From Calothrix sp. HK-06 (GTDB lineage Bacteria > Cyanobacteriota > Cyanobacteriia > Cyanobacteriales > Nostocaceae), in assembly GCF_001904745.1 (NCBI RefSeq), contig NZ_MRCD01000081.1, positions 1 to 40,643 on the forward strand: DNA of 40,643 nt, read 5' to 3'. A model generated the notes under the pieces. It did not search any database. It saw nothing but the letters and a program-made list of their open reading frames with translations, and was not told the DNA's origin. The position numbers and the translations under genes are program-made. Positions 1-40,643 of the stretch are shown here, in pieces; position 1 is the first letter of the stretch; the number at the start of each line of letters is the position of its first letter.

Positions 1-2303
1 ACACTACTTACCATTATATCCCCACCCATTAACTTCGCATACTCTCGACTAATCGCTAACCCTAAACCTGTTCCTTCCATCGACTGACGACCAAGTTGTG
101 TTTGCACAAATGGATTAAATAATTTCTCTAGGTCTTCAGACGCTATTCCATACCCTGTATCTATCACTTCAAAAACTAAATGCTGCTTATTATCTATATC
201 ATAATCAAAATTTAAAGATTCTGGCGCCTGCTTTGAAGGTTTACGCTCATATTTTCTTCTCAACATTTTATAATATCTATATCTCTGACCAAATAAACTT
301 TGATATAAAGTTTTAGGTAAAATAGTCTGCTTCGTAAAAAAATAATTCTTTATACTTTCTTGTAACACAGTAAATGAATTTCCGTGCAATTTTTTTTCTT
401 GATTAGTAGTACATACATTTTGTTGTGAAGCCAGTTGTGATTTAATCAAATTTGATATTTCTGCTGTTTGTAACTTGACTCGTAAAGTTACACCCCCATA
501 GCTTGTAAATTTGATTGCGTTACCTAATAAATTAATCAAGATTTGACGTAGTTTACTTTCGTCAGTAATTATGTACTGTGGAATATCACCAATTAATTCA
601 AAGTTAAAATTTAAGTTTTTACTGTTAGCACGCAGTTGCAACATTTTATATATGGCATCTAGTAATGCGTACAAATCAAAGGCACGCTCTACTAACATTG
701 TTCTACCTGCTTCTATTTTAGACATTGATAGTACATCATTTATTAATTCCAATAAATGTTTACCACTGCGGTTAATAATTTCGATATGCTGTCTTTGGTC
801 TAATGTTAATTTTTCTTCACGTGCTAAAATTTGACTAAAACCTAGAATTGCATTCAGTGGAGTACGTAATTCATGACTGATGTTGGCTAAAAATGCACTT
901 TTGGCTTTGTTTGCTGACTCTGCTTCTTGTTTTGCAATTTCTAGTGCTATATTCTTTTCTACAAGCTCTTGAGTTCGTTCTTTCACTTTCAATTCTAGGT
1001 TACTAGCGTAGTTCGCTAAAGCTTTGTGTGATAACTGCAATGAACGCACCAGTAAATACAGCTTACTTCCAAGAGTTGCGCTAGTCAGTCCTAATAATGG
1101 TGCTACTACATTTACCCACCAACCACTAAGAAATAGCGAGTACGTACTAAATAAAAGACTTAGGATGGCGCCGGGTAATAGTATACTAGTTGTAAATACT
1201 AGCGAGCTCGACTGCGTAGCAATTTCACTTACTCTATGCTTCTTGAAGTAAAATCTATTTAATCTAATTTTGACTCCCCACCCAATCGTAGCACCTACAC
1301 TTGACCAAAAGAATATCCATAACCATCCTAACTGTTCAGATATTCCTCGTAACAGTTGTCTGTCATCTAATGCTGCACTTAATATTTGACTTGTTAAGTC
1401 TGCGTGTAATTCAACACCTGACCAAGCAGTATTTACGTCACGAGTAAAAGGAGTATAAAACCTTTCACTCAAGCTTTCAGCTACTGAACCAACTAAAACG
1501 ACCTTGCCTGCCATTAAGTTTGAAGGTACACGATTTTCGAGTACATCTAATAAAGGTATTTTGGTGACAGAGGAATGTGAGTTGCGAAAATTTGCTAAAA
1601 TTTGATATCCTCCCACATCCACACGCACAAAACCCCCTTCACTATCCTCCATTGGTACAAATTTGGCTTTTCCCAGTTTCAGAGCTTCTTTTTGCCCGTC
1701 ATGAATTTGTTTAATATTTTGCTTTTCTAAGTAAGTTAACGCTAACTTTGCTCCTAATGTCAAATAAGTTTTAGTTTTACTCTTATCTCTTACCGCGAGT
1801 AGATAGCGTCTGACTTTACCATCGCTTTCTAATACTAAATCACAAGCCGCAATTTGGTCACGTGTCGCAAGTACAGGTGGTGGTTCAACGACTGGCCCGT
1901 TATTATTACTTAATATTTTTTGAATTCCAATCAAATTTGGTGTAGACTCATATACGTCTAATAGCTCTTGATGACCTGGTTCTACGGGCAAGTTGCGATA
2001 TAAGTCTAACCCAATCACTGCTGGTTGCTGGTGTTTAATTTTGTTAAGCAATTTCGCAAGTGTTCTGTCGTCAATAGGCCAGCTTTTGAAACGCGAAATA
2101 TCATTCTCATCAATAGTGACTATGACAATGCGGGAGTCTGCTAGTTCTCCTGGACGTGCTGCAAACCACTGGTCTAACATCGCGCATTCCATAAACTGCA
2201 AGGCGCCTGTTAGTTGTAAACTAATGATTGTCAGCGTCACAAACACCGAAGTCATTTCAATGCCACGATACCGCAGAATCTGTATTTTCAACTTTTTCCA
2301 CAT
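1..2303 (-). CDS. CHASE2-domain sensor histidine kinase (partial, C-terminus off window)
   Basis: Membrane sensor kinase expected to autophosphorylate a histidine in response to a signal sensed by its CHASE2 domain. I translated the minus strand from ATG at 2303; the frame stays open to the window edge. A first membrane helix lies near residues 17-33, followed by a CHASE2 domain (DSRIVIVTIDEND near its start, to about residue 310). Hydrophobic segments follow at about 340-440, then a coiled linker. The H-box reads SHELRTP (His477), the N-box NLLGNAIKF (Asn595), G1 DTGYGIA (Asp715) and G2 GTGLGL (about 746). The 120 residues between N- and G1-boxes are longer than usual, implying an insert of roughly 80 residues. 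The start lies 32 bases after the DUF928 stop, so it is probably the last gene of the 7302-to-1 operon. A receiver domain beyond the edge cannot be excluded. No clear Shine-Dalgarno site is seen. Confidence 0.88.
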   Translation of the reverse strand, partial: MWKKLKIQILRYRGIEMTSVFVTLTIISLQLTGALQFMECAMLDQWFAARPGELADSRIVIVTIDENDISRFKSWPIDDRTLAKLLNKIKHQQPAVIGLDLYRNLPVEPGHQELLDVYESTPNLIGIQKILSNNNGPVVEPPPVLATRDQIAACDLVLESDGKVRRYLLAVRDKSKTKTYLTLGAKLALTYLEKQNIKQIHDGQKEALKLGKAKFVPMEDSEGGFVRVDVGGYQILANFRNSHSSVTKIPLLDVLENRVPSNLMAGKVVLVGSVAESLSERFYTPFTRDVNTAWSGVELHADLTSQILSAALDDRQLLRGISEQLGWLWIFFWSSVGATIGWGVKIRLNRFYFKKHRVSEIATQSSSLVFTTSILLPGAILSLLFSTYSLFLSGWWVNVVAPLLGLTSATLGSKLYLLVRSLQLSHKALANYASNLELKVKERTQELVEKNIALEIAKQEAESANKAKSAFLANISHELRTPLNAILGFSQILAREEKLTLDQRQHIEIINRSGKHLLELINDVLSMSKIEAGRTMLVERAFDLYALLDAIYKMLQLRANSKNLNFNFELIGDIPQYIITDESKLRQILINLLGNAIKFTSYGGVTLRVKLQTAEISNLIKSQLASQQNVCTTNQEKKLHGNSFTVLQESIKNYFFTKQTILPKTLYQSLFGQRYRYYKMLRRKYERKPSKQAPESLNFDYDIDNKQHLVFEVIDTGYGIASEDLEKLFNPFVQTQLGRQSMEGTGLGLAISREYAKLMGGDIMVSS

Positions 2304-2335
2304 ATACAAAGCAAGAGTGTTGGGGAAGTGAAAAT

Positions 2336-3100
2336 TTAATTTGCCGTTGCCACTATATTTAAACTCAAACCAACCGAAGTTAATAACTCTGTCCAAGTTC
2401 GTGCGAGTTGCGAGTTGTGTGGTTCTTTTTGCTGAAGTTCCATCACTGTTGCAACTGCATCATACCAGTATCCATTTCTGGCGTATAAAGATATACGTTC
2501 GACTAAATTCGCTTTGATTAATTTATTTTGCAAATCCTGACTCAACTGTGTATACTCTATCCAACCTCCAACTACTATGTCTGACGTTCGGTCTTCTGGG
2601 TTACAAGCTAACGCAAATGACCAGTAATAAGGCTGATTTTTGACTAAAGACAGCGCCGATGGTAATTTAATTGCAATAAAACCTTTACTGTTTTCTACTG
2701 ATATATCTGTCTGATATACCCCATTCATTTTCTCATCAAATAAGCTAAACTCTGCTACTTTCGCGTTAGTTTTCGGTAAATATACATATAACACTGGGCG
2801 CCCTTCATGAGATAATCCAACATGTTTACCCGGAGTCAAAGCAGTTAGGGTTTTAGTTCTAGCTTGAATTGAAGAACTACAAGAAAGCATATCACTACGT
2901 GAACCTCCACCTGCTGTCCCACCACGAGGTGCATCTTTTCGTGGTGGTGGTTCAAAACTTACCGTAGTTAACCCACTCACACCACCCACCTCACTAGGAG
3001 TTACTGCATTAACTGATGATATCGATAATGGTAGGGTGACTGTTGCCGTTAAGCACCCTATTACTAATTTACACCCGCATGTTTTTGTTAGAAAATCCAT
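2336..3100 (-). CDS. DUF928 family secreted protein
   Basis: A 254-residue protein of the cyanobacterial DUF928 family; its biochemical role is unknown. It has a hydrophobic N-terminal segment ending near SSVNA (about residue 33) that looks like a signal peptide. A Gly/Pro/Arg-rich linker follows, then the core with the LTPGKHVGLSHEGRPV stretch and YYWSFALAC, typical of the family. The C-terminal part (YARNGYWYDAVATVMELQ) is helical, as in other members. It lies 44 bases after the CHAT gene and 32 bases before the CHASE2 kinase, all on one strand. From family knowledge, DUF928, CHAT and CHASE2 genes often sit together in cyanobacteria. That suggests a shared envelope signalling function, but this is inference. 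Confidence 0.85.
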   Translation of the reverse strand: MDFLTKTCGCKLVIGCLTATVTLPLSISSVNAVTPSEVGGVSGLTTVSFEPPPRKDAPRGGTAGGGSRSDMLSCSSSIQARTKTLTALTPGKHVGLSHEGRPVLYVYLPKTNAKVAEFSLFDEKMNGVYQTDISVENSKGFIAIKLPSALSLVKNQPYYWSFALACNPEDRTSDIVVGGWIEYTQLSQDLQNKLIKANLVERISLYARNGYWYDAVATVMELQQKEPHNSQLARTWTELLTSVGLSLNIVATAN

Positions 3101-3144
3101 ATACCTTTAGTATCTTTTTTTATATCTATCCAATTATGTATTTT

Positions 3145-5727
3145 CTATAGCCAATTGCCAACTAGTATAAAACTTGCCCAGTAATAAGGATGTTTGTATT
3201 CTTCACTCTTCATTAACTCAAGTTGCGCTTTCTGCAAAGCTTCCGCTCTTGTGGCACCAGAATATAACTGTTTGTAAAAAACATTCATAAACACTGGTGT
3301 ATACTCATCATTGATTTGCCATAGCGATGCTAAAACACTACGCGCACCCGAATGTGCTGCAACTCCCGCTATTCCTAATGCCGCAGAATCATCTCCAGAA
3401 GCTGTTTCACAAGCGCTTAGTATTAATAACTCTATTGGACTGGCGCCTTGTAAATTCCGGTCGGCAATTAATGAGTTTAACATGTTAATATCAAGCTGCT
3501 CATTCCATGTTTGAATATAAGTACCCGTAACATTAGAACTAAATTGACCGTGTGTAGCTAAGTGTATTACTGAATACTTCTTATATAAATTATTCCGTAA
3601 ATTCTCTATTGTAAAATTCTGATTGAGCAATACCTTGGTTGGAACCAAAGCGCGAATACTTCTAATTTCTTGCTCAACTCCTGGTAACGGTGATAAATTT
3701 TGGTTTGGTAAAGTCACTCCTCCTGCCAAAACCTTGATTTTATCTTTATGTAAAACTCCTGCTTTAAACAACTCTAAACTAGGCGCCACAGCAAGAGCAT
3801 ATTTTTCAATCAAATATTGTGTACCATCATGTAATGCTGCCATCGGTATATTCCGCAATGAACCATCCAGCACAAATACCAACGTTTTTATCTCGTGAAG
3901 AGTTAAAATCTCAGCAGCAGGTTTGATTAACCAGTCATATAATTGTTGAGCAATCAATAACCGTTCGCGTTCAAACGAAGTTTGTCTTTGCGAGTGTCGC
4001 ATTGCTTTAATAGCAGTTTCGACTTGTGCGGCAGTCTTCAAAGTCGCATAATGACGTAAAGGTTGGTTAGGAAGCGAAAGAATAACTTCGAGACGGTCTT
4101 TTAAGATAATAGGGTATATTACAGCGGCATTTGTATCAATTTGTTCAATCGAAATTGGTTGACCGTTTAAACAAGCTTGGCGAAAATAATTAGCAAGTTC
4201 TGCCATTTGCAACGCTTCGATGATTTCACGTGCAAACACTAATTTTGATTGTTGCTGTTTTAACGCAATATCTGGAACATCCTGCAACAGTAAATCTACT
4301 AATTCTCTGTAAATAGGTTCAACACTTTCGCGAAATGATAACTGAACATCTTGATTAATGCCTACCAAGTCTTGACGAAGTGTCTGTAAAATATGATATG
4401 CTTCTGTATAATTACTTATGGCTTTTTCAGTATTACCTTGTGCTTTAAAAATTCGTCCTAGTTGCCATTCCCACTGATACGCAATATCAGCAGCTTTTAA
4501 TGAACGTGCTTTCTCTAAAGCAAGAGTAGTAAGTTTAATCGCATTTTGCCACTGTTGAGTTTGTTCATATAAACCTGCCAAACGTCCCAAAGCTATCGAT
4601 TCAGTACGAGGATGTCCCAAAGTTTGAGCATCTTTATAAGCGTTTGCTAATAACTGTGCTGAAATATTTAAATAATCTTCCTTGATATTCCCTTGTTGAT
4701 TCGTATGTACTGATGATTCTTGTAAGCTTTTCATTTTAATTAAGTCTGAAGCTAACTCAATTTGGGCGTATACTTTAGTTTGGCTGAGTGGGTAGTTAGG
4801 TAATAACTCAGTATAAATTTGTTTTAATAGCTTTTGAGCATCGCTATAGCGGTCAAGATGTACGAGAGTTTTCAGCTCATAAACACTCGCTTGTAGTCTA
4901 ACGGGGCTATTTGCAACGGCGCCTTTTTGGTAAAATTCTAAAGCGGTCGTTGGTTGACTTTGATCTTCGGCAAGTCTTCCCAAATTGAGTAGTATCATAG
5001 ACGCTTGTGGATGTAACTGCATCGCACTTGCAATTTTGTAGCTTTGCATATTGACTTCATTTGCACCAACATAGTTACCTATAACTCGTAACAAATTACC
5101 CAAATTCATTAGTGCAGTTACTTTCAACTCCGAGTCAGGTTGTGCTGATAGTGAAGTTTGTACATGCTCAAGAATATTTTTCGCACGTAAAAAATATCCT
5201 AACACTTGTAAAGCACGTGCAGAATTCAACTGCGTCCCAATAACACCCATAACATCATGACTTTTTCTGTAATATTTTTCTGCTTGTTGAAAAGCATCAA
5301 GAGCAGATTCAGTATTACCCAGGTTAAATAATAACTCACCTTGATTATTCAAAACACAGGCGCCTATTTTTAAATTAACAACCTTCCCGTTATCGTAAAT
5401 TAACTGCTTTGCTTGGGATATAGAAGACTCAGCCAAAACTAACTGTCCATTTTGCTGATAAGCTAAAGCTAAGTAAGAAAGCATCAAAGCTTGAGATTGT
5501 TTATCATGATTATGCTCATAGCGATGAACAGCATAACTCCAAACACGAATCGCGTCATTATAGAGTCCCGCAGAATAAAACACCTGTCCATTCATCAACG
5601 AATTTGATACAGATGCTGTTACGGTGCCACTAAAAATGATAAATAATGTAACTATATTAATTACAACAAATAAACGTAACCATCTACGTAACTTCATAAA
5701 CATGAACTCATAGTTAGGGTGCATCAT
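3145..5727 (-). CDS. TPR-repeat CHAT domain protein (caspase-like)
   Basis: An 860-residue protein with N-terminal TPR repeats and a C-terminal CHAT domain, a caspase-fold peptidase domain. The first ATGs at 5727 and 5724 are followed by a better start at residue 11 (ATG at 5697), which opens a signal-anchor-like segment (MKLRRWLRLFVV then hydrophobic). TPR units run from about residue 45 to 450 (for example ALDAFQQAEKYYRKS and AISNYTEAYHIL). The CHAT domain shows the catalytic pair in HLATHGQF (His726) and LSACETASG (Cys773), followed by the usual ASLWQIND and C-terminal WASFILVGNW. The catalytic residues are intact, so protease activity is plausible. It is the second gene of the TPS/CHAT/DUF928/CHASE2 cluster, 111 bases after the exoprotein stop. 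The partner substrate is not evident from sequence; the TPS exoprotein is a candidate. Confidence 0.9.
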   Translation of the reverse strand: MMHPNYEFMFMKLRRWLRLFVVINIVTLFIIFSGTVTASVSNSLMNGQVFYSAGLYNDAIRVWSYAVHRYEHNHDKQSQALMLSYLALAYQQNGQLVLAESSISQAKQLIYDNGKVVNLKIGACVLNNQGELLFNLGNTESALDAFQQAEKYYRKSHDVMGVIGTQLNSARALQVLGYFLRAKNILEHVQTSLSAQPDSELKVTALMNLGNLLRVIGNYVGANEVNMQSYKIASAMQLHPQASMILLNLGRLAEDQSQPTTALEFYQKGAVANSPVRLQASVYELKTLVHLDRYSDAQKLLKQIYTELLPNYPLSQTKVYAQIELASDLIKMKSLQESSVHTNQQGNIKEDYLNISAQLLANAYKDAQTLGHPRTESIALGRLAGLYEQTQQWQNAIKLTTLALEKARSLKAADIAYQWEWQLGRIFKAQGNTEKAISNYTEAYHILQTLRQDLVGINQDVQLSFRESVEPIYRELVDLLLQDVPDIALKQQQSKLVFAREIIEALQMAELANYFRQACLNGQPISIEQIDTNAAVIYPIILKDRLEVILSLPNQPLRHYATLKTAAQVETAIKAMRHSQRQTSFERERLLIAQQLYDWLIKPAAEILTLHEIKTLVFVLDGSLRNIPMAALHDGTQYLIEKYALAVAPSLELFKAGVLHKDKIKVLAGGVTLPNQNLSPLPGVEQEIRSIRALVPTKVLLNQNFTIENLRNNLYKKYSVIHLATHGQFSSNVTGTYIQTWNEQLDINMLNSLIADRNLQGASPIELLILSACETASGDDSAALGIAGVAAHSGARSVLASLWQINDEYTPVFMNVFYKQLYSGATRAEALQKAQLELMKSEEYKHPYYWASFILVGNWL

Positions 5728-5818
5728 CTCTTAAGTATCGTTACCATTACAACAGCAACCTTACGTACTTACGCGATATCACTATTAAATTATGTACGTA
5801 ATAACACTTATAAAACTG

Positions 5819-5833
5819 AAAAACCGGGTTTCT
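5819..5833. repeat. AAACCGGGTTT palindromic repeat, copy 1
   Basis: Short palindrome (AAACCGGGTTT with flanking TCT) just downstream of the exoprotein gene. The same motif occurs at 13655-13669 and 13707-13721. It is probably a dispersed intergenic repeat; it could form a small hairpin between the exoprotein and CHAT genes. Confidence 0.6.
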
Positions 5834-5838
5834 GTAAC

Positions 5839-7302
5839 CTATCCGTTACATCCGTCCATCATCCGTTGCCAGTTTGCTTTATGACTCGCAACAAGTTTAA
5901 TCACACCATTCTCAACTTCCCACGCAGTTGCTTCCACAAGTTCATGTTGTGTAGATACATTAGTCCCTTGATTATCTTTAACCTCGTTAATATGGCGCCA
6001 GTCTATCCAACCAGAGTTGACGCTCAAAGCTTCTGTTGTATTCAATGGTAAACCACCACGTCCAACAATAACAAAGCGATTTGTGGTAGCTTGGTTTGAA
6101 CAAGTTTGATTAATTTGCTTTGACACATCTACTATAGATGTGGGTAACTGAGTCACACCTCGATTTGGGTCGATATTTAAAGTCGTAATATTGATGTTAC
6201 GATTACTCGCAGCAGGAGATGTCACCAAGATATCGCTGCGTCCTGTTGGGGAACGACGTTTTTCTAGACCAAAGATAGCATTACTGGATATTCTAATTTT
6301 TCCACCGTTATCTTGCATCACGTTCGTGGTAATATCATTATCGCCATTTGGGTTGACTAAAATAAACCCTGCTTCAATATTAATATTGGCGCCATTACCT
6401 TTTCCTGTGGATACAGTAGAAATAGTCGCATTCTGACGCAACGTTAACAAACTCGAAGCGTACACATTCACATTTCCACCTTCTGTGATTGTTTTTGCGC
6501 TGACTATTCCTCCTTCAATTGTCAGGTTATCTGTGATTAATTGCAAGTTACCACTGGTGCCACTTCCTTGACTACTCACACTAACTTTAGCTTTATCATT
6601 TATCATCAATTTATTCGTTGCTTCTACAGTAATATCACCACTACTAGTTATATTCCCTGTAATTGTGATGTTATTTGCCGTCAAACTCAAATTTTGAGCA
6701 GATAAATTAGCATCAACTTGAATATTCCCAGCCGAACCCCACTGTACACCAATAGGTGCCGATATATGTAGTAAAGAACGATTATCAACGTCTTTTACAC
6801 CATGTGGAAATTTCCAAGACTCAGCAGTACTCAAATATAACGACCCTTTAATATCGAGTGCAGCATTTTTACCCAAGTAAATTCCATTTGGGTTAAATAA
6901 ATATAAATTAACATTACCTGCTGTGCGTATTAAACCATTGATATTAGAGATATCACGTCCTGTCACCCGCATAATAATATTATCTACCCTAGGAGCATTG
7001 TCAAAATAAACGCTTTCTCCATTTTTCACCGAAAACTGTAAAAAACTGTGAAATAAATTGGCGCCTGTTTGAGTTCCACCTGTAATGGTAATATTTTGAT
7101 GTTGGGATGTAACGATTGAATTATTGGGAAGGGTTGCATCAGGAACAACTTGCGCTTGTACTGCTGTAATACACAGACTCATATGAATCACGTTTAACAT
7201 GACTTGACATATATTATTTGCAACAGTAGTTATACTCACAGCACACTCATCAAAATACTGCAAGTCAAAAATAACACAGAATGGTCTGACCCCCCACCCC
7301 AA
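5839..7302 (-). CDS. Short filamentous-haemagglutinin-type TPS exoprotein
   Basis: Exported beta-helix protein of the two-partner secretion (TpsA) type. The frame opens at 7302, but ATG at 7200 (residue 35) gives the better signal peptide, ending at TAVQA before QVVPDATLPNNS, which is the usual start of the mature TPS domain. That choice leaves 453 residues. The TPS domain is marked by TGGTQTGANLFHSF and NPNGIYLG. Only a few beta-helix repeats follow, so the protein is much shorter than the two paralogues at 30835-36250. The C-terminal module (VGRGGLPLN, then EATAWEVENG) is shared with them. The last ten codons lie in a 32-base repeat that recurs downstream of parB. First gene of the CHAT/DUF928/CHASE2 cluster. 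No outer-membrane TpsB transporter is present. Confidence 0.87.
   Translation of the reverse strand: MGWGVRPFCVIFDLQYFDECAVSITTVANNICQVMLNVIHMSLCITAVQAQVVPDATLPNNSIVTSQHQNITITGGTQTGANLFHSFLQFSVKNGESVYFDNAPRVDNIIMRVTGRDISNINGLIRTAGNVNLYLFNPNGIYLGKNAALDIKGSLYLSTAESWKFPHGVKDVDNRSLLHISAPIGVQWGSAGNIQVDANLSAQNLSLTANNITITGNITSSGDITVEATNKLMINDKAKVSVSSQGSGTSGNLQLITDNLTIEGGIVSAKTITEGGNVNVYASSLLTLRQNATISTVSTGKGNGANINIEAGFILVNPNGDNDITTNVMQDNGGKIRISSNAIFGLEKRRSPTGRSDILVTSPAASNRNINITTLNIDPNRGVTQLPTSIVDVSKQINQTCSNQATTNRFVIVGRGGLPLNTTEALSVNSGWIDWRHINEVKDNQGTNVSTQHELVEATAWEVENGVIKLVASHKANWQRMMDGCNG
5841..5872 (-). repeat. 32-base ACGGAT-type repeat, copy 1
   Basis: A 32-base sequence (plus strand begins ATCCGTTACATCC and ends CCGTTGCCAG) that matches 11848-11879 at 28 of 32 positions, all four differences being transitions. 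A degenerate inverted copy lies at 11780-11809. This copy encodes the last codons of the exoprotein gene. Short heptamer-like iterated repeats are known in cyanobacteria; membership of a named family is not established. Confidence 0.75.
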
Positions 7303-7403
7303 TAATTAAAGTAGGAAAAGTGATTTTGGAGAAAATATTTTAAGATAGAAGTGGTATAACCAAATATATCGTTATATTTTTTATCTAGTTATATATACTT
7401 AAT

Positions 7404-8807
7404 ATGAAAGTTAGGCGCCTAAAAATAAAGAATTTCCGTGGTTTGAGTGATTTGGAGTTGAATTTTGAGGTTCAGGAATCAGCCGTGTTAGTTGGTGTTA
7501 ATGGTGTTGGGAAGTCTAGTATTTTAGATTGCTTGACAATTTTATTATCGCAGTTTACTGGGCGCCTGCAAGATTCTTTGTCAATGCGGTTTTTTGACGA
7601 CAAGGATATTATGAACGGGCGCCAGTCGTTAGAGTGTGAGATTACAATAGTCGAAGGTGAGCGTGAAATTAGTTGGTCATTGCAAAAAGAGCGTCCATCG
7701 TCAGTTCACGATGTTAGAAGTACAGGGATGAAACGCTTAGAAGCAATCAAGTCTATACTATATGATGTAAATGAAGAACAACTGCAAGCGTTAAGTCAAA
7801 AGCGTAATGAGTTAAGCAAAGCACTGCAAGCTGTAAGTGTTGCACTAGATTTTATCGAAGGAGAGGGTGATAATCAAACACTGCCTTCTTTACAAGCATA
7901 TGTAGATGAGTTAGTAACTGGACTAAGTACAAGTAATATAAACTTACCCGTTATAGTATCTTACCCTGTCAACCGTGCGGTTTTAGAAATGCCCTTAGAT
8001 ATGACGCAGGAGAATATATTTAGTCAAGTTAACGCATACGACCAAGCACTAACAGGTGGGAGGATAGACTTTAAAGGTTTTTTTGAATGGTTTAGGAACC
8101 GTGAAGATTTAGAAAACGAACAGCGACGTGATAACCCAGACTATCGAGATATACAGTTAGAGACAGCACGAAATGCAATTTCTTCATTACAACCTGATTT
8201 TACCGACTTGCATGTGGTTCGTGCGTCACTGCAAATGATGGTTAAAAAGCAGGGTCAAGAACTTGTAGTTAACCAACTTTCAGACGGAGAAAAATGTTTG
8301 CTAGCTTTGGTTGGTGACTTAGCAAGACGACTAGCAACAGCAAACCCATACTTAGATAATCCACTCCTGGGTGATGGAGTAGTGCTTATCGATGAAATAG
8401 AACTACATTTACATCCCAAATGGCAACGAGAAATTATTCCTGCATTAAAAAGGACATTTCCCAACTGTCAATTTATCGTTTCTACCCACTCTCCGCAAAT
8501 AGTCAGTTATATCAAACCCGATAACATCTACATTATTACCGCAACACCCGATGGTGTGACATTACAGCAACCAGAAAACTCGTTCGGTCGGGACAGCAAT
8601 CAAATTTTAGAAGATTTAATGGGTGTATCAGAACGTCCGCAACAAATCAAAAACGGTTTAAGCGACTTATTTAAATTAATCGACCAGGGTCACTTAGAGA
8701 CAGCGAAACAACTACGTCAAAATCTTGCAACACAAATAGGAGAAGATGACCCCGAATTTGTGCGTGCAGATGTATTAATTCGACGCAAGGAAATATTAAA
8801 TCGATGA
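7404..8807 (+). CDS. ptuA: Septu-type ATPase PtuA (AAA/ABC-like)
   Basis: A 467-residue ATPase of the OLD/RecF-like AAA_15/21 group, proposed as the ATPase subunit of a Septu anti-phage pair. The N-terminus reads MKVRRLKIKNFRGL, with a Walker A motif GVNGVGKSS at residues 31-39. A long middle region carries coiled-coil-like helices (about 110-150). The ABC-type signature LSDGEK lies at 292-297, Walker B LIDE at 328-331 (Asp330, Glu331) followed by IELHLHP, and the switch STHSPQIV near 360. The stop overlaps the next start by four bases (ATGA at 8804), indicating translational coupling with the HNH gene. That pairing supports PtuA over a lone RecF-like ATPase. No reverse transcriptase is nearby, so a retron Ec78-like version is not indicated. 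Confidence 0.85.
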   Translation: MKVRRLKIKNFRGLSDLELNFEVQESAVLVGVNGVGKSSILDCLTILLSQFTGRLQDSLSMRFFDDKDIMNGRQSLECEITIVEGEREISWSLQKERPSSVHDVRSTGMKRLEAIKSILYDVNEEQLQALSQKRNELSKALQAVSVALDFIEGEGDNQTLPSLQAYVDELVTGLSTSNINLPVIVSYPVNRAVLEMPLDMTQENIFSQVNAYDQALTGGRIDFKGFFEWFRNREDLENEQRRDNPDYRDIQLETARNAISSLQPDFTDLHVVRASLQMMVKKQGQELVVNQLSDGEKCLLALVGDLARRLATANPYLDNPLLGDGVVLIDEIELHLHPKWQREIIPALKRTFPNCQFIVSTHSPQIVSYIKPDNIYIITATPDGVTLQQPENSFGRDSNQILEDLMGVSERPQQIKNGLSDLFKLIDQGHLETAKQLRQNLATQIGEDDPEFVRADVLIRRKEILNR

Positions 8808-9448
8808 AATATATTCAAAAAAATCAAGAACCGCGAAGTTTGACCGATTGGAATCAAAAGCTAGGTGGCAGGATAAAAGATTGGAAGTCCTTTAATAAAT
8901 CGGTCAAAAACGACGTTTATGAATCTTTGTTGAAAGAGCAGGGGTTTATTTGTGCTTACTGTAGTCGTCCTATTATTCGCACAAACTGCCATATTGAACA
9001 CTACCGTCCAAAAAGCGTTTACAAAGAATTAACTTTTGCTTATACCAACCTAATTGCATCGTGTCAAGGAGAAGACGAGAGAAAACCGCGTACACCCGTA
9101 CACTGTGGACATAAAAAAGGCGCCTGGTATGATGAGGAGTTAATGGTATCACCCTTAGACCCTGGATGTGAGACATATTTTAGATATACAGGGTCAGGGG
9201 AAATAGCACCAGCACAAGGAGTCAAGGAAGAAGCAGCGCAAACAACTATTAATAAACTTGCCCTAGATATAGATAAACTAAGAAGACTGAGGAGAACAGC
9301 GATAGACACAGCTATACAAATAAGTGAAGGATTAGAAGAGGTAGAAATACAGCAACTAATTCAAGGATACCAAAAACCAGATAATAATGGGCGCCTGACC
9401 CCGTTTTGCGACGTAATAGTATATACACTGCAAAAATTTGTGCTATAA
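8804..9448 (+). CDS. ptuB: Septu-type HNH endonuclease PtuB (TIGR02646-like)
   Basis: A 214-residue HNH nuclease, the likely effector of the PtuA/PtuB pair, expected to cut nucleic acid when the ATPase complex is triggered. The HNH core is visible as CAYC (Cys50, Cys53), then HIEH (His63-His66) followed by YRPK, and an Asn in YTNL (Asn82). Further cysteines (Cys87, Cys101 in HCGHKKG) could complete zinc binding. The C-terminal half is helical (LDIDKLRRLRR). The length matches the TIGR02646/PtuB family. It overlaps ptuA by four bases and is followed after 58 bases by an unrelated ABM gene. The catalytic motif is intact, so the system may be functional. Confidence 0.86.
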   Translation: MKYIQKNQEPRSLTDWNQKLGGRIKDWKSFNKSVKNDVYESLLKEQGFICAYCSRPIIRTNCHIEHYRPKSVYKELTFAYTNLIASCQGEDERKPRTPVHCGHKKGAWYDEELMVSPLDPGCETYFRYTGSGEIAPAQGVKEEAAQTTINKLALDIDKLRRLRRTAIDTAIQISEGLEEVEIQQLIQGYQKPDNNGRLTPFCDVIVYTLQKFVL

Positions 9449-9506
9449 AAGTGCAAATTGCGAAGTATTGCTAAATGCTAAGTGCTAATTGAAAGGAGAT
9501 ATAACA

Positions 9507-9821: not shown

Positions 9822-9921
9822 CAACGAAGCATCTAAGATTGTCATGCATCAGAACGACGAATTTTTTTTTCACATAAGTAAGGTGCGTGAAGAATTAGCT
9901 TTAATATATAATAGGCGCCCC

Positions 9922-13542: not shown

Positions 13543-13573
13543 AATTATCAAGTTTAAATTTAAGCTAATTCTT

Positions 13574-19327: not shown

Positions 19328-19491
19328 AATTTATACCTTATCATTGATGTTTGATTTTTACTTATTCGTAGTATCTTGCAATCAACAAGGTATTGTCGGT
19401 ACCCTTTTGGGTGCTATTTATGACAATGTGGCGCCATATAAACAAAGCAAGCTTTGGCAGGCTATATTTGTATAACTGTTATTATTTTTGC

Positions 19492-20049
19492 GTGAAGATG
19501 CAAAATCGTTATTATCTGCCTCCTGCTTTTTTTATTCGACGCGCACGTTCGAGGGACAAATGGAAGATTAAACAATTATTGCTAACGTGGAATGAGGCTA
19601 ATAATATTTTGCCCATCAATTTTTACTCGTTGGCACTGATTTTATTGTGTTGTGTATTTTTATGGTTCAACGCGATTGTATTTGCACTTCTTATCTTTAT
19701 ATATTTGTTATATGAAGTTAGATTAAAAGATTATTCAGATTTTTGGGTTATCGATTATAATGGCGCCGTAGTTGGTTGTGCTGAATTACGTGTCTTTAAA
19801 AAATATTCCTTAATATTTAATCTTTGTGTGAAAAAAGAATATCGGCGCCAAAAACTAGCATCATGTATGATTGAGCATTTAATTTTAGAAGCAAGAGAAC
19901 CCATTTATTTATCTTGTTTCAAAGAATTAATACCCTTTTACACTCGCTTTGGTTTCATAGTCATCTACCCAGACGCATTACCCGAAGGCTTACAACTAGT
20001 ACTAGGAGCAACACCAGGGGCGCCAGTAGTCCCCATGAAACTAGGATAA
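19492..20049 (+). CDS. GNAT family N-acetyltransferase with hydrophobic insert
   Basis: The open frame begins at 19393, but the GTG at 19492 or the ATG at 19498 (183 residues) is the likelier start because the upstream part has no family resemblance. The protein has an N-terminal IRRARSRD segment. A long hydrophobic stretch follows (about 43-71), enough for one or two membrane helices. The acetyl-CoA-binding core follows (VVGCAELRVF, then YRRQKLASCMIEHLI in place of the canonical R/Q-x-x-G-x-G/A loop). The C-terminus is FYTRFGF. The embedded membrane segment suggests membrane attachment. The acceptor substrate is unknown. Three GGCGCC sites fall in the gene. Confidence 0.78.
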   Translation: MKMQNRYYLPPAFFIRRARSRDKWKIKQLLLTWNEANNILPINFYSLALILLCCVFLWFNAIVFALLIFIYLLYEVRLKDYSDFWVIDYNGAVVGCAELRVFKKYSLIFNLCVKKEYRRQKLASCMIEHLILEAREPIYLSCFKELIPFYTRFGFIVIYPDALPEGLQLVLGATPGAPVVPMKLG

Positions 20050-23598: not shown

Positions 23599-24894
23599 TT
23601 AAATTCCTAGTCTTTGATATACCTCATCTAGATGTTGAAGGTGGTGCTGTGGGTTAAAACAAGCTTCAATTTCTTGTGGTGATAGTTTTTCTTTTACTCG
23701 TGCGTCTTGAGTAATTAAATCACGGAAGTTACCGTCAAGTTTATTCCATGCGGTATGAGCATTTTCTTGCACTATTTTATATGCTTCTTCGCGTCGCACT
23801 CCTTTTTCTACTAATGTAAGCATGACTCTTTGACTAAATACAACACCCCCGTAACAATTCATGTTTCTAGCCATGTTTTCGGGATATACGAGTAAGTTCT
23901 TTACTAGCTCGGTCATTTCTACAAGCATAAAATGCGTTATTATACACGCATCTGGTAACATAACTCGTTCTACTGAACTGTGAGATATGTCGCGTTCGTG
24001 CCAAAGTGCAACGTTTTCTACTGCTGCTACTGCGTAACTACGAACCATTCGTGCCATTCCTGTTAAACGTTCTGAGCGAATAGGGTTACGTTTATGTGGC
24101 ATTGCTGAAGAACCTTTTTGTCCTTTAGAAAAATATTCTTCAACTTCCAGGACATCGGTTTTTTGCAGGTTACGAATTTCTACTGCAAATCTTTCAATAG
24201 ATGCTGCGAGTAATGCTAGTTGCTGTACGTATTCTGCGTGTATATCTCGCGATACCACTTGTGTTGATGCTGCATCTGGTCGAAGTCCCAATGACTCACA
24301 TGCTAATGCTTCTACGCGCGGTTCTATATTCGCATACGTACCAACGGCGCCAGATATTTTACCAACGGCGATATTTTTGCGGACGCTTTGTAAACGCTCT
24401 TGGTTACGTAATGCTTCTGCTAACCATCCCGCTAATTTAAAACCAAATGTCATTGGTTCAGCGTGGATTCCATGCGAACGTCCTATCATTACTGTATAAC
24501 GGTGTTCGCCTGCGCGTTTACGAATTGCTTCGATTAAATCCTCTAGGCGCCGTAATATTAAATCTAAACTCGCCACCATTTGTACTGCTAATGCTGTGTC
24601 CAGTACATCGGAACTTGTCATGCCGAGGTGGATGTAGCGTCCAGCATCACCAACATATTCGTTAACATTGGTTAAAAAAGCAATCACATCGTGGCGGACT
24701 TCTGCTTCAATTTCGAGGATGCGTTCGGGGTCAAAATTAGCTTTTGCTTTAATTTCGGCAACTGCCTCACGCGGGATATAACCCAACTGAGCTTGTGCTT
24801 CACAAACGGCAATTTCTACCTGTAGCCAAGTTTGAAACTTGTAGGCATCAGTCCAAAGGGCGCCCATTTCGGGCAAGGTATAACGTTCGATCAC
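23599..24894 (-). CDS. purB: Adenylosuccinate lyase
   Basis: A 431-residue fumarase/aspartase-superfamily enzyme that removes fumarate from SAICAR and adenylosuccinate in purine synthesis. Conserved features are LGMTSSDVLDTA (about 90-101), GRSHGIHAEPMTFG (about 139-152) and the signature loop SSAMPHKRNP (about 262-271) with the catalytic serine. It starts MIERYTLPEMG, as in most bacterial PurB. This is the clearest housekeeping gene in the window and suggests that at least this part is chromosomal or a large replicon. Confidence 0.96.
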   Translation of the reverse strand: MIERYTLPEMGALWTDAYKFQTWLQVEIAVCEAQAQLGYIPREAVAEIKAKANFDPERILEIEAEVRHDVIAFLTNVNEYVGDAGRYIHLGMTSSDVLDTALAVQMVASLDLILRRLEDLIEAIRKRAGEHRYTVMIGRSHGIHAEPMTFGFKLAGWLAEALRNQERLQSVRKNIAVGKISGAVGTYANIEPRVEALACESLGLRPDAASTQVVSRDIHAEYVQQLALLAASIERFAVEIRNLQKTDVLEVEEYFSKGQKGSSAMPHKRNPIRSERLTGMARMVRSYAVAAVENVALWHERDISHSSVERVMLPDACIITHFMLVEMTELVKNLLVYPENMARNMNCYGGVVFSQRVMLTLVEKGVRREEAYKIVQENAHTAWNKLDGNFRDLITQDARVKEKLSPQEIEACFNPQHHLQHLDEVYQRLGI

Positions 24895-28607: not shown

Positions 28608-28619
28608 AGGTATTTGTAA

Positions 28620-33321: not shown

Positions 33322-33538
33322 ACACTACGCTTACAATCTTACTCTGAACAAACGTATCTAAATTTTAGGCATCTTGTTTAGTAAGGGTTTCAAATTTTAG
33401 CAACAAAACTAAATAATCGACTAAATCTTTGTCTAGTAAGCATTCCACACATAAGATGCGTTTGCCCTACACAAGCATGGTAATTTGTTTAAATGCATAA
33501 TTCTGTGGGGGTTAAAGGAAGAATTTTATAAAGAAAGA

Positions 33539-36250: not shown

Positions 36251-36287
36251 ACACCACGCTTACAATAGTATCAGTAGTTTTATATTT

Positions 36288-37679: not shown

Positions 37680-38522
37680 AGTAATAATAATAATATGGTT
37701 TACACCTTCAATACATGATTTATACTTAGAATTATTTATATACAAATGTGAAAAGCCAAATTAATCTAGGTATCACTTATGACATTAGCTATTAAGGCAG
37801 TATTGTGAATAAATTAAAGTAGCAGTTGTAATGAAGGAAACACTTAAATTTGAATTATCCCTCCCAGATTAACCGAAACACCTTAAGCAAGTACACTAAC
37901 TAAGACCATACTTACTTAGTATTGTGCAACAAAAGTAACAATACTGATTATTGAAGCACTTTTTATTTAAATAGATATATATAAATCTCATAATATTTAT
38001 TTTAAAAATAAGCTTGTCTGAATCTATACCTACAACTTGCCAAAAAAAAATGTAAATTTCGCTTCTTTATTAATTTATTTATGTAACTTAATGCTGGTTC
38101 ATGTTGCTAAAGTATTAAAAATTCATAGTATGTTGCTCTTGTCAAGTTATAATTTTAATATTTTTATTCTATAAAAGTAATAACTTATTTGCCAGCCCAC
38201 AATGCAGCTCTTTAGTAACTTGAATAAGAATAATAGATTAATTCTAATATAGGCACCATATAAAATCTATATATGATTCATACCTACGGTAGATAACTCT
38301 TCATTTTTATTATGATAAGGCGAGCCTAGAAGAATTTTGTAAATATTAGCGCTATAAAATCTATATATGATTCATACCTACGGTAGATAACTCTTCATCT
38401 TTATTATGGTAGCACGAGCCTAGTAAGAATTTTATAATATTAGCGCTTTACCAATCATATATAATCACTTTGAAATAGAATTATTATGCACAGGCTCAAC
38501 TTCTGCACTAATTTATAAATAG
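37680..38522. other. Long divergent intergenic region (about 840 bases)
   Basis: Very AT-rich, no gene seen on either strand. It separates the starts of two paralogous HTH/AAA genes and contains a 94-base direct tandem repeat at 38259-38446. Both promoters must be here. The unusual length for a cyanobacterial divergent promoter and the tandem repeat suggest regulatory content or a decayed insertion. Confidence 0.6.
38259..38446. repeat. 94-base direct tandem repeat, two copies
   Basis: Copy 1 at 38259-38352 and copy 2 at 38353-38446, both starting TATAAAATCTATATATG and both containing ATTCATACCTACGGTAG, GATAACTCTTCAT and ending near ATTAGCGCT. Differences are concentrated in the second half. 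The copies lie 77 bases upstream of the 38523 start and could be operators or the result of slippage. Confidence 0.85.
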
Positions 38523-39893
38523 ATGCCAAGCGTTGAAGAAACCATTGAAAAATTTCAAGCGTTAATTTTGGAGAAAACTGGGAAGTCGCTCAGTTTTATT
38601 CAAAAAGTCATCCTGCGCGAATCTTTAAATCAAACTCAGACAACTTATACTCAAATCGCGCTGGAAAATAACTACTCCGAAAACTATATTAGGCAATTGG
38701 TTGCTCCGAAGTTATGGCAATTACTTTCAGAAACCCTTGGAGAGAAAGTTAACCGAACCAATTGCCGTGCTGTATTAGAACAGCGTTTTGAAATATTATC
38801 TAGTGTAAATAACTCACAAACGACTCAAATACAATCACTTGAACACGCACAATCAAGAGCAGAATATCCATTAGAGTCTCCTGAAGGAACAGTTCCTTTG
38901 GCTTCTCCTTTTTATATTGAGCGAGGCATAGAGCAAATTTGTTATCAAGAAATTATTCAACCTGGTGCATTTGTTCGCATCAAAGCTTCAAGACAAATGG
39001 GGAAGACTTCTCTAATGACAAGAATCATTAGTCACGCCAGCTTCCACAACTATAATATAGTGCGGTTAAGTTTGTACCGCGCGGAAACCAATATTTTTAG
39101 CTCTACCCAAAATTTCTTACAATGGTTGTGTGCAAATGTCAATCGCCAGTTGGGAATAAAATTAAAGATTTCTAGCTTTTGGGATGAAGATATCGGCGCC
39201 TTGATGAATGCGACTGTTTACTTTCAAGAACATCTGTTGAATCAAATATCAACTCCTATCCTGTTGGCATTAGACGAAGTTAATCAATTATTCGAGTACC
39301 CTAACCTTGCCCGTGATTTTTTAGCACTATTGCGGTCGTGGTATGAGGAAAGTAGAGATATTTCGATATGGCGAAACTTGCGAGTGTTAATTGTGTACTC
39401 GACCAATGCTTATATTAATTTACATACAAATAAAACTCTTTTCAACGTTGGTACTTCATTTGAGTTACCGCCTTTCACAAGATTGCAAGTAGAGGATTTA
39501 ACGCAGCGTCACCAGATCCAACTTACTGAGTTTGAATTTGAACAAGTAATGGAACTAACGGGGGGATTTCCTTATTTAGTGCGGTTACTGCTGTATCATA
39601 GCTCGCAACATCAGCTATCAATAGAAAATTTGAGGCGAGATGCTGCGAGCGATATCGGGATTTTTTACAAGCACTTGCATGAACTGTTATGGCATTTGAA
39701 GCAAAATCCAAACTTAGCTGCTGCTTTTAGTGAAGTTGTACTAGCACAAGCGCCAATTTTTTTAGAACAAGAGGTGGCATTTAAGCTCAAAAGTTTGGGG
39801 CTAATCAGTTTACAGGAAAGTCACGCAACTGTTAGTTGTCTGTTATACAAACAGTATTTTACCTCACATATGGCTTACATGCTAAATACGTAA
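38523..39893 (+). CDS. HTH-AAA_35 ATPase (VMAP-type), paralogue of 36288-37679
   Basis: A 456-residue paralogue of the divergent ATPase, aligned along its whole length. The N-terminal HTH reads SFIQKVILRES, then YTQIALENNYSENYIRQLVAPKLWQLLSE split by short differences. Walker A RQMGKTS includes Lys161. The Walker B-like strand is ILLALDEVNQLFE, with the canonical Asp-Glu, unlike the other copy. The C-terminal winged part ends in VSCLLYKQYF. The acidic residue suggests this copy hydrolyses ATP. AAA proteins with this HTH are linked to cyanobacterial conflict/signalling systems. No obvious effector follows before the window ends. Confidence 0.87.
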   Translation: MPSVEETIEKFQALILEKTGKSLSFIQKVILRESLNQTQTTYTQIALENNYSENYIRQLVAPKLWQLLSETLGEKVNRTNCRAVLEQRFEILSSVNNSQTTQIQSLEHAQSRAEYPLESPEGTVPLASPFYIERGIEQICYQEIIQPGAFVRIKASRQMGKTSLMTRIISHASFHNYNIVRLSLYRAETNIFSSTQNFLQWLCANVNRQLGIKLKISSFWDEDIGALMNATVYFQEHLLNQISTPILLALDEVNQLFEYPNLARDFLALLRSWYEESRDISIWRNLRVLIVYSTNAYINLHTNKTLFNVGTSFELPPFTRLQVEDLTQRHQIQLTEFEFEQVMELTGGFPYLVRLLLYHSSQHQLSIENLRRDAASDIGIFYKHLHELLWHLKQNPNLAAAFSEVVLAQAPIFLEQEVAFKLKSLGLISLQESHATVSCLLYKQYFTSHMAYMLNT

Positions 39894-39951
39894 ATCGACT
39901 CATTTATTGTGGTCAAATAATCGCGCGTTTAATCACAAGCATTCAAATAAA

Positions 39952-39978
39952 AGTCAGAAAAGTCAGAAAAGTCAGAAA
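39952..39978. repeat. AGTCAGAAA tandem repeat, three copies
   Basis: AGTCAGAAA occurs three times in exact tandem. A short low-complexity repeat after the ATPase gene. Confidence 0.85.
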
Positions 39979-39995
39979 ATTAGAATATACAGTAG

Positions 39996-40054
39996 GGTGC
40001 GTTATACCACTAAGATTTTAAAACAAAGCGCAGTGATTTGTGGTGCTACGCACC
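39996..40054. repeat. GGTGCGT inverted-repeat element
   Basis: GGTGCGTTATACCAC (39996-40010) pairs imperfectly with GTGGTGCTACGCACC (40040-40054), loop of 29 bases. TAGGGTGCGTTA-type ends are familiar as dispersed repeats in cyanobacterial intergenic DNA. It may also help terminate the upstream gene. Confidence 0.65.
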
Positions 40055-40643
40055 AGCTACATATTTATAAATGCAAGTGTACATTATGTTTAGCAGTAAT
40101 TACTCTTGCCAAGTTCTTAGGGTAGCAAAAGTAGGAAAAATATGAAAATTGAAATTAATTTCAAGTTTTGATTAAATAAAATATTCGTGACTTAGCAGCT
40201 AAAACATAAAGAAATATAAATTCATTATTTTTGTGTAAAAAGATTCCATAAAATCAAGATTAGTGTTATTATTCGATTGTCAAGACAAAGGCTTGCAAAA
40301 TTTCAATGTAAATCAATGTCAAACTGCAAAAATACTATTTTTATATAATTCAGGGCTAATCTATCACTAGTCGCGAACTAATGCGCGAAAAGTGTCAGAT
40401 TATACAAGTAACTAGCGTTGCTAGATATACAATGCATTTAACTTGCCTAGGAGAAGGCCGAACACCTACCTTGTAAATTAAGCGCTTGTAAATTCCTACA
40501 ACTGACTGCTCTTGATGTTCTGACATTCTACAGCGTTTGTTCAGGAGTAAGTTGATATTATATTGTTTAACTATTAGTTAACAATCTTAGTAAACAAAAT
40601 AATTTACTATCATTTATAACTAAATATTAGCTCAGGACTTGGA

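Follow-up and report, generated by a model that had tools for sequence, protein, structure and literature searches.

The iterated palindrome HIP1 (GCGATCGC) is found in most cyanobacteria and has been known since 1995, and to our knowledge there is no agreement on its function or origin. Some cyanobacteria carry alternate HIPs, among them GGCGCC in Calothrix PCC 7103 (and in fragments of Calothrix D253), rCCGGy in Oscillatoria PCC 10802, and GCsGC in Cyanothece PCC 7822, the latter two known from single genomes (Elhai 2015, PMC4390886). For GGCGCC, that study likewise had one genome, and it judged alternate HIPs to be sporadic rather than clade-forming. According to the same study, the methylated base had not been established for any enzyme of the GRCGYC type; Neely and Roberts (2008, PMC2413257) had shown that M.BsaHI methylates the central C of GRCGYC.

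The window considered here, meaning the whole stretch of 40,643 bases that was analyzed from Calothrix sp. HK-06 (GC 37.7%), contains exactly 55 GGCGCC sites against 1.82 expected from base composition. A maximal-order Markov estimate yields 28.5, a figure this high because the excess of the motif's own 5-mers is already absorbed in it. Neither GCGATCGC nor CGATCG occurs anywhere in the window, and Rfam and tRNA scans of it returned no matches. The sites are dispersed, with varied flanks, and 52 of the 55 lie wholly within ORFs, distributed over the codon phases as 28/15/9. Their first bases are at positions 223, 1167, 2202, 2797, 3442, 3782, 4918, 5359, 5994, 6388, 7060, 7414, 7561, 7618, 9119, 9390, 9914, 10394, 10569, 11097, 11403, 11620, 12388, 13171, 14032, 14198, 14782, 17290, 17348, 19430, 19762, 19844, 20019, 20418, 21005, 21265, 21406, 21930, 22348, 22878, 24346, 24546, 24859, 25602, 26314, 27588, 28920, 29227, 31009, 34445, 34526, 35618, 35789, 36439, and 39195. 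The exact counts bear out the original prediction, made by eye, of about 55 sites where chance would give about two (at an estimated GC of 38-40%), mostly in genes and in different frames, and of a window devoid of classical HIP1. Three of its four example positions were exact, namely, 7414..7419 and 7561..7566 (both in ORF 7404-8807, + strand) and 24346..24351 (ORF 23599-24894, - strand); the site given as 19763 really starts one base earlier (19762..19767, ORF 19393-20049, + strand).

Across the whole genome (9.99 Mb, 243 contigs), GGCGCC occurs 15,449 times, which is 1546 per Mb or about one site per 600 bases, and some 30 times more often than base composition predicts. HIP1 occurs 88 times. 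When proteins and codon usage were kept constant (408.7 kb), 527 sites were observed against 32.0 expected (z 87), and GGCGCC ranked first among all hexamers. In this first codon-shuffle null most near-misses seemed depleted, an effect of the sites themselves supplying most of the GGC and GCC codons; a second null corrects for this by excluding codons within sites from the shuffle, and it gave 751 observed against 14.4 expected (560.7 kb). That the excess is an artefact of composition, of codon or amino acid usage, or of a single repeat family is a reading with practically no chance of being right. The commonest frame is indeed phase 0, which encodes Gly-Ala (297 of 527), but the synonymous-shuffle nulls are exceeded 16- to 52-fold, the reversed control CCGCGG, of the same composition, occurs only 6 times in the genome, the sites are scattered among varied flanks, and relatives outside the genus show no elevation of the motif. 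Both nulls rule out composition, codon usage, and protein usage as the cause, so the earlier claim that codon choice does not explain the pattern holds genome-wide.

All seven species examined in the genus of HK-06, which includes PCC 7103 (G005; 17,704 sites) and Dulcicalothrix desertica PCC 7102, carry GGCGCC iterated throughout the genome (1150 to 1711 per Mb) and have nearly lost HIP1 (4 to 23 per Mb). The iteration is present in none of the 65 other family genomes examined, where GGCGCC never exceeds 108 per Mb and HIP1 never falls below 50 per Mb (535 to 7734 copies). An apparent outside case, G079, in which GGCGCC looked raised (2493) in a phylum scan of 386 genomes, was discarded after 60 kb sampled from it gave 18 sites against 19.1 expected. 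The genus of PCC 7103 and PCC 7102 has GGCGCC as its alternate HIP, and what is new with respect to the earlier literature is that its iteration is genus-wide and not sporadic.

The agreement with PCC 7103 goes beyond the same sequence in the same genus. In both, HIP1 is near-absent, GATC is depleted, as are GACGTC, GACGCC, and GGCGTC, methyltransferases of the GRCGYC type are present, and the presumed CGATCG enzyme is missing. In the sense of Elhai (2015), HK-06 shows a HIP-class motif, since the density lies within the range of about 1000 to 2000 per Mb genome-wide, the palindrome is 100% GC where HIP1 is low, and the genome encodes, by homology, a candidate methyltransferase for the sequence. 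It is not HIP1 proper, from which it differs in its core while sharing a GC-rich palindromic form, a frequency on the order of one per kb, and a link to methyltransferases. The rCCGGy and GCsGC systems are similar in combining low HIP1, another raised GC-rich palindrome, and a matching methyltransferase, and differ in their sequences and enzymes. The view of GGCGCC as a HIP-like palindrome with another core and a methyltransferase connection is thus well supported; the original prediction knew that HIP variants exist and was unsure whether this one had been described, which it had been in PCC 7103 (PMC4390886).

The enzyme in question is a C5-methyltransferase (domain PF00145) of the BsaHI/HindV type (GRCGYC), whose gene, recognized by homology, is present in 7/7 genus genomes. 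All six named congeners carry an orthologue (81-100%) between the same neighbor genes, and these six enzymes are monophyletic in the gene tree. The chromosomal gene of HK-06 itself is split over two contig ends, at the gap between C29 and C207, which counts against the explanation favored below, and an intact 328-aa paralogue lies on contig C60. As in BsaHI/HindV, the TRD of all six genus chromosomal enzymes and of the C60 paralogue places an Arg, with Gly/Ala beside it, 11 residues ahead of the TL motif (by our count, the Arg stands 10 residues before the T; nine are given in PMC2413257). The homologues outside the genus sit beside SPERRFD endonucleases: among 72 such loci (two weak loci, L193 and L194, were dropped from an overall set of 80), 50 have an RE_HindVP-type gene within 4 kb, 49 of them directly upstream (two were scanned with Pfam, PF09519, and the rest called by similarity), and the motif SPERRFD is found in 44 of 52 RE_HindVP-type members. 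HindVP was inactive in vitro (PMC2413257), so its family includes dead nucleases too. GRCGYC is wholly absent from 37 of the 72 loci (pooled O/E 0.26), and family genomes with both genes have a median of 0.55 GGCGCC per Mb (n = 12) versus 5.3 in those with neither (n = 49; p 0.001). In contrast to these restriction-modification systems, the genus has no RE_HindVP-type gene at its six enzyme loci and no PF09519 in any of its seven genomes, and the target, in one of its forms, is present in excess where those systems avoid it. These comparisons argue strongly that the cognate enzyme of the genus is a solitary BsaHI/HindV-type C5-methyltransferase (313 aa), predicted to modify the central cytosine of GRCGYC, whose restriction partner is gone. 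A solitary methyltransferase had been foreseen, as an enzyme recognizing GGCGCC; the candidate is of GRCGYC type and not specific to GGCGCC.

Other methyltransferases of HK-06 were considered as the cognate enzyme. A 658-aa enzyme (C29) was rejected: congeners G002 and G006 lack an orthologue of it, and nine pattern-free genomes among the 72 searched carry one (64-76%). A 411-aa enzyme (C229) was likewise rejected: G001 lacks a close orthologue, the frames of G002 and G006 are shortened, that of G005 contains one internal stop, and four pattern-free genomes among 72 searched have the enzyme at 77-79%. Relatives of a 370-aa enzyme (C211) occur in 7/7 genus genomes, as compared within the genus; it is a minor alternative.

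The decay of sites points to the same base that M.BsaHI methylates. In the species comparisons (only alignments of at least 300 bases and 72% identity were used), C-to-T at the central cytosine accounted for 15/20, 45/60, 16/24, 17/23, 16/25, and 2/3 of the one-step losses, and of nine one-step classes, GGTGCC plus GGCACC alone clearly exceeded expectation (162 versus 64), the other eight being at or below it. The central-base C-to-T rate was 0.040, 0.078, 0.049, 0.074, and 0.086 in G004, G005, G002, G006, and G003, compared with 0.057, 0.053, 0.054, 0.043, and 0.109 at other CpGs. The central base is therefore not consistently faster than other CpGs; what sets it apart is the protection of its neighbors and the fact that it changes almost exclusively to T. 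Outer bases within sites were substituted at 0.013-0.034 versus 0.064-0.067 at other non-CpG G/C (close species), and the synonymous wobble C of Ala GCC was kept in 109/120 cases in sites versus 173/316 elsewhere (G003, p 7e-14; counts rebuilt from rounded fractions). At the wobble C of Gly GGC, synonymous protection is weak in two of five species pairs (kept 0.848 versus 0.792 in G002, 0.829 versus 0.787 in G006). In G005 and G006, retention of whole sites is little higher than for all other hexamers, whatever their G/C content (0.786 versus 0.734 and 0.809 versus 0.752, respectively). Together with the central-base rates, these two comparisons weigh against the explanation favored below. A check for conservation of sites between relatives had been proposed, and outer bases are indeed conserved above controls, even at synonymous positions.

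Taken together, the pattern is probably best explained as a genus-specific alternate HIP that arose from the solitary GRCGYC enzyme after HIP1 was lost, through a methylation-directed bias, and that now stands between decay and protection. The lineage would have lost its GATC/HIP1 sites along with the family's conserved 434-aa methyltransferase, presumed to be DmtC from its phyletic pattern and length. The G-meC marks of the solitary enzyme may then have taken over, and a bias directed by methylation, arising most likely from mismatch repair, as Elhai proposed, and less likely from selection for the mark, would have piled up GGCGCC in the genus ancestor. No mismatch-repair nuclease that reads G-meC is known, and Elhai terms such a nuclease hypothetical (PMC4390886). 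Today, the central 5-methylcytosine would deaminate to give GGTGCC/GGCACC; since methylation should erode sites by C-to-T and the outer bases are conserved, something must also restore or protect the sites. Judging from single relatives, the gain of GGCGCC seems to require both a solitary enzyme and the loss of HIP1: G028 has lost HIP1 (535 copies) and has 11 GATC versus 474 expected (200 kb), no homologue of the enzyme, and no GGCGCC excess, and G027 has the enzyme without HindVP, 6611 HIP1 copies, and again no excess. Two further genomes, G050 and G067, count against the explanation, having a homologue without HindVP and no GGCGCC excess (G050 still avoids the motif, with 3 sites); solitary homologues outside the genus were judged by a 54-residue query plus PF09519. 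A more specific proposal is advanced tentatively, as somewhat short of an even chance: one swap of HIP in the genus ancestor for a restriction-derived methyltransferase mark, inherited by the seven species, with HIP1 loss and a solitary G-meC enzyme jointly required and the array held between central-base decay and active protection elsewhere.

The history of gains and losses bears on the competing accounts. On terminal branches, 52 losses stand against 2 strict gains, or 7 by a looser count, in a reconstruction that drew on part of each congener's contigs (columns had to include G003 and at least four ingroup species), whereas control loss/gain ratios are 0.93-1.03 for words of 0-5 G/C and 1.39 for other all-G/C words. 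This surplus of losses weighs against the favored explanation, and the array may be eroding; 35 of the 52 losses are central-base C-to-T, with no strict gain back. Many sites also go back a long way: G003 shares 183 of 245, and G001 27 of 44. All this fits an array left by a burst in the genus ancestor, with nothing maintaining it now. We nevertheless consider this mere relic unlikely, given that substitutions at outer and synonymous positions are rarer within sites than at matching bases outside them, that stretches of secondary contigs of congeners, probably plasmids, carry the motif at the usual density (44 sites in 33.6 kb, 23 in one 20-kb stretch, and 41 in another), and that DNA without an aligned homologue, as compared with retrieved stretches only, has 1.34 sites per kb versus 1.73; losses should also outnumber gains wherever the intact state is strongly favored at each position. 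Of the suggestion that a cognate methyltransferase maintains the sites, the link to an enzyme is supported, but methylation would be expected to erode the sites through C-to-T.

The protected positions could instead reflect selection, without biased repair, for a methylated palindrome kept every ~600 bases as a signal that benefits the cell across the genome, in recombination, nucleoid order, or strand discrimination during repair, an account that deserves some weight even if we doubt it. It gains from a Gly-Ala dipeptide O/E of 1.10-1.13 in the genus versus 0.95 and 0.80 in two relative sets, and from a spacing slightly more even than that of 81 control words (gaps under 100 bases at 0.71 of Poisson versus a control median of 1.24, long gaps at 0.77 versus 1.15), which is weakly informative because all the control words are AT-rich. 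A swappable signal, wholly absent in G028, fits a dedicated reader poorly, however, and losses outpace gains. It is very improbable that transformation favors GGCGCC-bearing DNA and recombination spreads the motif: the density, the mainly genic position, and the conservation across the genus would suit an uptake signal, but six bases are short for one, and only the C-to-T class is raised, where a signal balancing plain mutation should raise near-misses generally. The creation of sites from GGTGCC by very-short-patch repair (Vsr) beside the methyltransferase is more improbable still. The central C-T exchange dominates and 2 of the 7 loosely counted gains come from GGTGCC, yet GGTGCC/GGCACC is enriched 2.5-fold and not depleted, and the 35 polarized central-base losses run the opposite way. 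Classical Vsr repair as the creator of sites is refuted, PF03852 being found in none of the 72 genomes, the seven of the genus among them (5 of 14 control genomes were positive).

These results turn a single-genome curiosity into a comparative system of seven sequenced species with GGCGCC in place of HIP1. The genus provides spectra of both gain and loss, in which sequence alone points to the methylated base, and the relatives G028 and G027 each lack one of the two presumed prerequisites. Elhai's model of mismatch repair directed by G-meC becomes directly testable in PCC 7102, PCC 7103, and PCC 7716. If the one-time swap is true, HIPs would be interchangeable products of methylation and repair bias and not signals tied to a dedicated sequence, and the genus, together with G028 and G027, would be a natural experiment showing that interchangeability.

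GGCGCC occurs exactly 55 times in the window (40,643 bases, GC 37.7%) versus 1.82 expected from base composition, as the original prediction had estimated; of four site positions it quoted, three are exact and one is off by one. Exact counting also returned zero copies of the classical palindrome HIP1 (GCGATCGC), whose absence had been claimed, and zero of CGATCG in these 40,643 bases. The sites lie mostly in genes and in different frames, as described (52/55 inside ORFs, codon phases 28/15/9), and codon choice does not explain them: with synonymous codons permuted and proteins and codon usage held constant, 527 GGCGCC were observed in 408.7 kb versus 32.0 expected (z 87, top of all hexamers), and 751 versus 14.4 in 560.7 kb when in-site codons were excluded from the shuffle. 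The whole genome (9.99 Mb, 243 contigs) confirms the observation, with 15,449 GGCGCC, 6 of the control CCGCGG and 88 GCGATCGC; GGCGCC reaches 1.73 per kb within coding DNA and 0.95 per kb elsewhere. Since spacing in the sampled stretches is a little more even than that of control words and Gly-Ala is mildly elevated in genus proteins, the pressure may extend to protein sequence.

The reading as a HIP-like iterated palindrome was well founded and concerns a known kind of feature. According to Elhai 2015 (PMC4390886), GGCGCC is the alternate HIP of the congener Calothrix PCC 7103, in which HIP1 is near-absent, GATC stands at 16% of expected, two GRCGYC-type methyltransferases are present and the CGATCG enzyme gene is broken by a deletion. 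The same paper proposes that such sites are created by G-meC-directed mismatch repair and argues that alternate HIPs are sporadic, with no persistence in clades. Among the titles and abstract openings listed on GGCGCC in Calothrix, cyanobacterial methylation, HIPs, HIP1 methyltransferases since 2016 and Dulcicalothrix methylation, mostly outside subscription journals, no follow-up on this motif was evident. Contrary to the published view, the alternate HIP is a clade trait, as GGCGCC is high in 7/7 congeners (1546 per Mb in the source genome; 1150, 1644, 1511, 1701, 1526 and 1711 in MAG C42_A2020_038, PCC 7716, NIES-4105, Dulcicalothrix desertica PCC 7102, PCC 7103 and MAG FI2-JRJ7) and low in the 65 other family genomes examined (0-530 copies each, never above 108 per Mb). 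HIP1 numbers 4-23 per Mb in the seven and 535-7734 per genome in the 65. The source species belongs to the same genus and shares about 94% identity over aligned DNA with PCC 7716, PCC 7102, PCC 7103 and FI2-JRJ7. A phylum draw of 386 genomes contained no other genome of similar GGCGCC density with comparably low CCGCGG; its dense genomes have both words elevated. G179 is a separate case. New relative to the published account are the clade-wide extent of the replacement, an enzyme family as candidate, a prediction of which base is methylated, and natural controls.

Sites also tend to be retained among congeners. GGCGCC retention against PCC 7102, PCC 7103, PCC 7716, FI2-JRJ7, NIES-4105 and C42_A2020_038 was 215/240, 243/309, 163/192, 131/162, 183/245 and 27/44, above that of other all-G/C hexamers in all six (0.67, 0.62, 0.64, 0.66, 0.48 and 0.38; all remaining hexamers 0.72, 0.73, 0.72, 0.75, 0.46 and 0.29). 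The outer bases are protected: among close species they were substituted at 0.013-0.034, versus 0.064-0.067 at other non-CpG G/C. The synonymous C of Ala GCC was kept in the site versus elsewhere in 118/119 versus 258/334 cases (PCC 7102), 143/148 versus 356/458 (PCC 7103), 91/96 versus 250/307 (PCC 7716), 78/80 versus 196/228 (FI2-JRJ7) and 109/120 versus 173/316 (NIES-4105), with p from 0.003 to 7e-14 over the five pairs (counts rebuilt from rounded fractions). For Gly GGC, whose synonymous C is the presumed marked base, that C was less protected (0.83-0.94 versus 0.76-0.81 in close species), nearly all its losses being to T.

One-step losses between the source genome and the six congeners, in the order used for retention, were central C-to-T changes on either strand in 15/20, 45/60, 16/24, 17/23, 16/25 and 2/3 cases. 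Among the nine one-step neighbour classes, only GGTGCC/GGCACC was clearly elevated (162 versus 64.3, 2.5-fold); GTCGCC/GGCGAC was at expectation (1.04) and the remaining seven were lower (0.39-0.81). This is the pattern expected from 5-methylcytosine deamination, and it predicts the central cytosine of GGCGCC as the methylated base.

A PF00145 search of the seven genus genomes, followed by clustering of some of the matches, pointed to a candidate C5-methyltransferase. An enzyme of about 313-337 aa, with the same neighbours and located after a RuBisCO-like gene, is present in all six congeners; these copies are 81-100% identical to the PCC 7102 enzyme and monophyletic in the gene tree, and additional, more distant paralogues also occur in congeners. 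In the source genome, the chromosomal gene is split between contig ends, with its N-terminal part at the end of contig C29 (L014:1-323), its C-terminal part at the start of C207 (L017:1-330) and the middle not seen. On C29, non-homologous sequence directly follows the catalytic-motif GGPP, near codon 85, and the split is either a gene disruption or an assembly break. An intact 328-aa paralogue on contig C60 (16.8 kb) branches with the chromosomal clade at 100/98 support; judging by eye from its recombinase-like genes, C60 is probably a mobile element. A DpdA-like gene (PF23859, deoxypurine-in-DNA family) at L015:7169-8047 on this contig adjoins one truncated and one intact copy of the GRCGYC-type methyltransferase.

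A homologue scan of named genomes gave 80 loci, of which 78 were analysed, 72 of them outside the genus. At 50 of these 72, a gene of one similarity cluster lies within 4 kb (49 directly upstream); two scanned members are RE_HindVP (PF09519), and 44/52 members carry SPERRFD, a motif described by Neely and Roberts (PMC2413257) as essential in R.BsaHI, a cutter of GRCGYC, with HindVP itself inactive. For influenzae Rd, the HindV strain, a passage in PMC8565308 gives a result under the standard threshold of its method. GRCGYC is wholly absent from 37/72 non-genus loci (pooled O/E 0.26), and a few other palindromes, e.g., GGGCCC, are avoided just as strongly in this mixed set. Within the family, median GGCGCC per Mb is 0.55 where both genes occur (n=12) and 5.3 where neither does (n=49; p 0.001). 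The target-recognition loop is arranged as in BsaHI; unlike in BsaHI/HindV restriction-modification, the nuclease-cluster gene was found at 0/6 genus loci and RE_HindVP in 0/7 genus genomes (24/120 genomes searched carry it). Together, nuclease neighbours, GRCGYC avoidance and loop indicate that the genus carries a gene for a solitary methyltransferase, as suggested originally, of GRCGYC type by homology.

Genomes outside the genus served as one-factor comparisons. G028 has few HIP1 (535 in 10.7 Mb) and GATC at 11 versus 474 expected in 200 kb. At the threshold applied it has no homologue of the enzyme, and GGCGCC is not in excess (1 versus 12.6 expected). Those 200 kb (L213, L277-L285) hold 7 HIP1, no other strongly raised palindrome and abundant short tandem-like words, e.g., GGAGTGGG. 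Conversely, in G027 (probably Tolypothrix brevis) the enzyme occurs without HindVP, alongside 6611 HIP1 and only 277 GGCGCC; a homologue without HindVP is also found together with HIP1 in G050 and G067, where GGCGCC numbers 3 and 71, respectively; and four homologue loci (Hassallia, Tolypothrix, Spirirestis and Plectonema) have no nuclease gene within 4 kb, HIP1, and 0-1 GGCGCC. Thus, HIP1 can go unreplaced and a solitary enzyme alone is insufficient, matching Elhai's model. Among the genomes examined, the two conditions combine only in the genus; with one genome, G028, in the HIP1-loss-only cell, a requirement for both is suggestive. A 434-aa C5-methyltransferase conserved in the family, presumed to be the CGATCG enzyme DmtC, was present in 10/10 family genomes fetched for it, including G028 and G012; none of the genus genes with which it was compared is its orthologue.

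Other palindromes also deviate. Besides GGCGCC, a second palindrome, CGCGCG, is over-represented across the genus (170 versus 33 expected in coding DNA of the source genome, L013-L032 and L237-L244; 130 in 140 kb of NIES-4105). Several restriction-type palindromes are nearly absent with protein sequence fixed (observed/expected: TTCGAA 0/125, CCATGG 0/61, TGCGCA 1/60, CCGCGG 0/27, GCATGC 1/45, CTGCAG 7/120), and the window holds 6 GATC versus 94 and 9 GGCC versus 42 by Markov estimate. G179, an order-level relative (L286-L288, L297-L314; 374 kb sampled, 54% GC), has an apparent further alternate HIP: CGGCGCCG 454 versus 18 expected, CAGCGCCG plus CGGCGCTG 433 versus 18, CAGCGCTG 2 versus 4.5 and HIP1 7 versus 8.4. 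Possible readings are a target of RGCGCY type and decay of CGGCGCCG through C-to-T changes; both sampled congeners (G106, G190) are HIP1-rich, and the tenth of the G179 genome examined held no homologue of the methyltransferases studied here. Another relative, G078 (L315), has 0 HIP1 in 20 kb and top 8-mers including CCAGGGCC and GGGCCTGG, which may represent one more alternate HIP.

With NIES-4105 as outgroup, strict single-lineage changes gave 96 sites common to all, 52 losses and 2 gains (7 gains in a looser count), while the loss/gain ratio was 0.93-1.03 for words of 0-5 G/C and 1.39 for other all-G/C words. This would fit an array that is currently shrinking, or a preference for the intact state so strong at every position that gains seldom show. 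The C-to-T share among central-base changes was higher than at other CpGs in 5/5 pairs. The central C-to-T rate exceeded that of other CpGs for PCC 7103 (0.078 versus 0.053) and FI2-JRJ7 (0.074 versus 0.043) but not for PCC 7102 (0.040 versus 0.057), PCC 7716 (0.049 versus 0.054) or NIES-4105 (0.086 versus 0.109), which slightly reduces our confidence in the best explanation. We nevertheless consider it fairly probable that, once HIP1 had been lost in the lineage, G-meC marks came from a solitary BsaHI-type enzyme, and a bias directed by methylation, for which mismatch repair is the best explanation, piled up GGCGCC in the genus ancestor. The over-representation throughout the genus, the distribution of the enzyme and nuclease genes, the spectrum of decay and the protection of the outer bases are observed; we infer methylation in vivo, a repair bias rather than selection, and this sequence of events.
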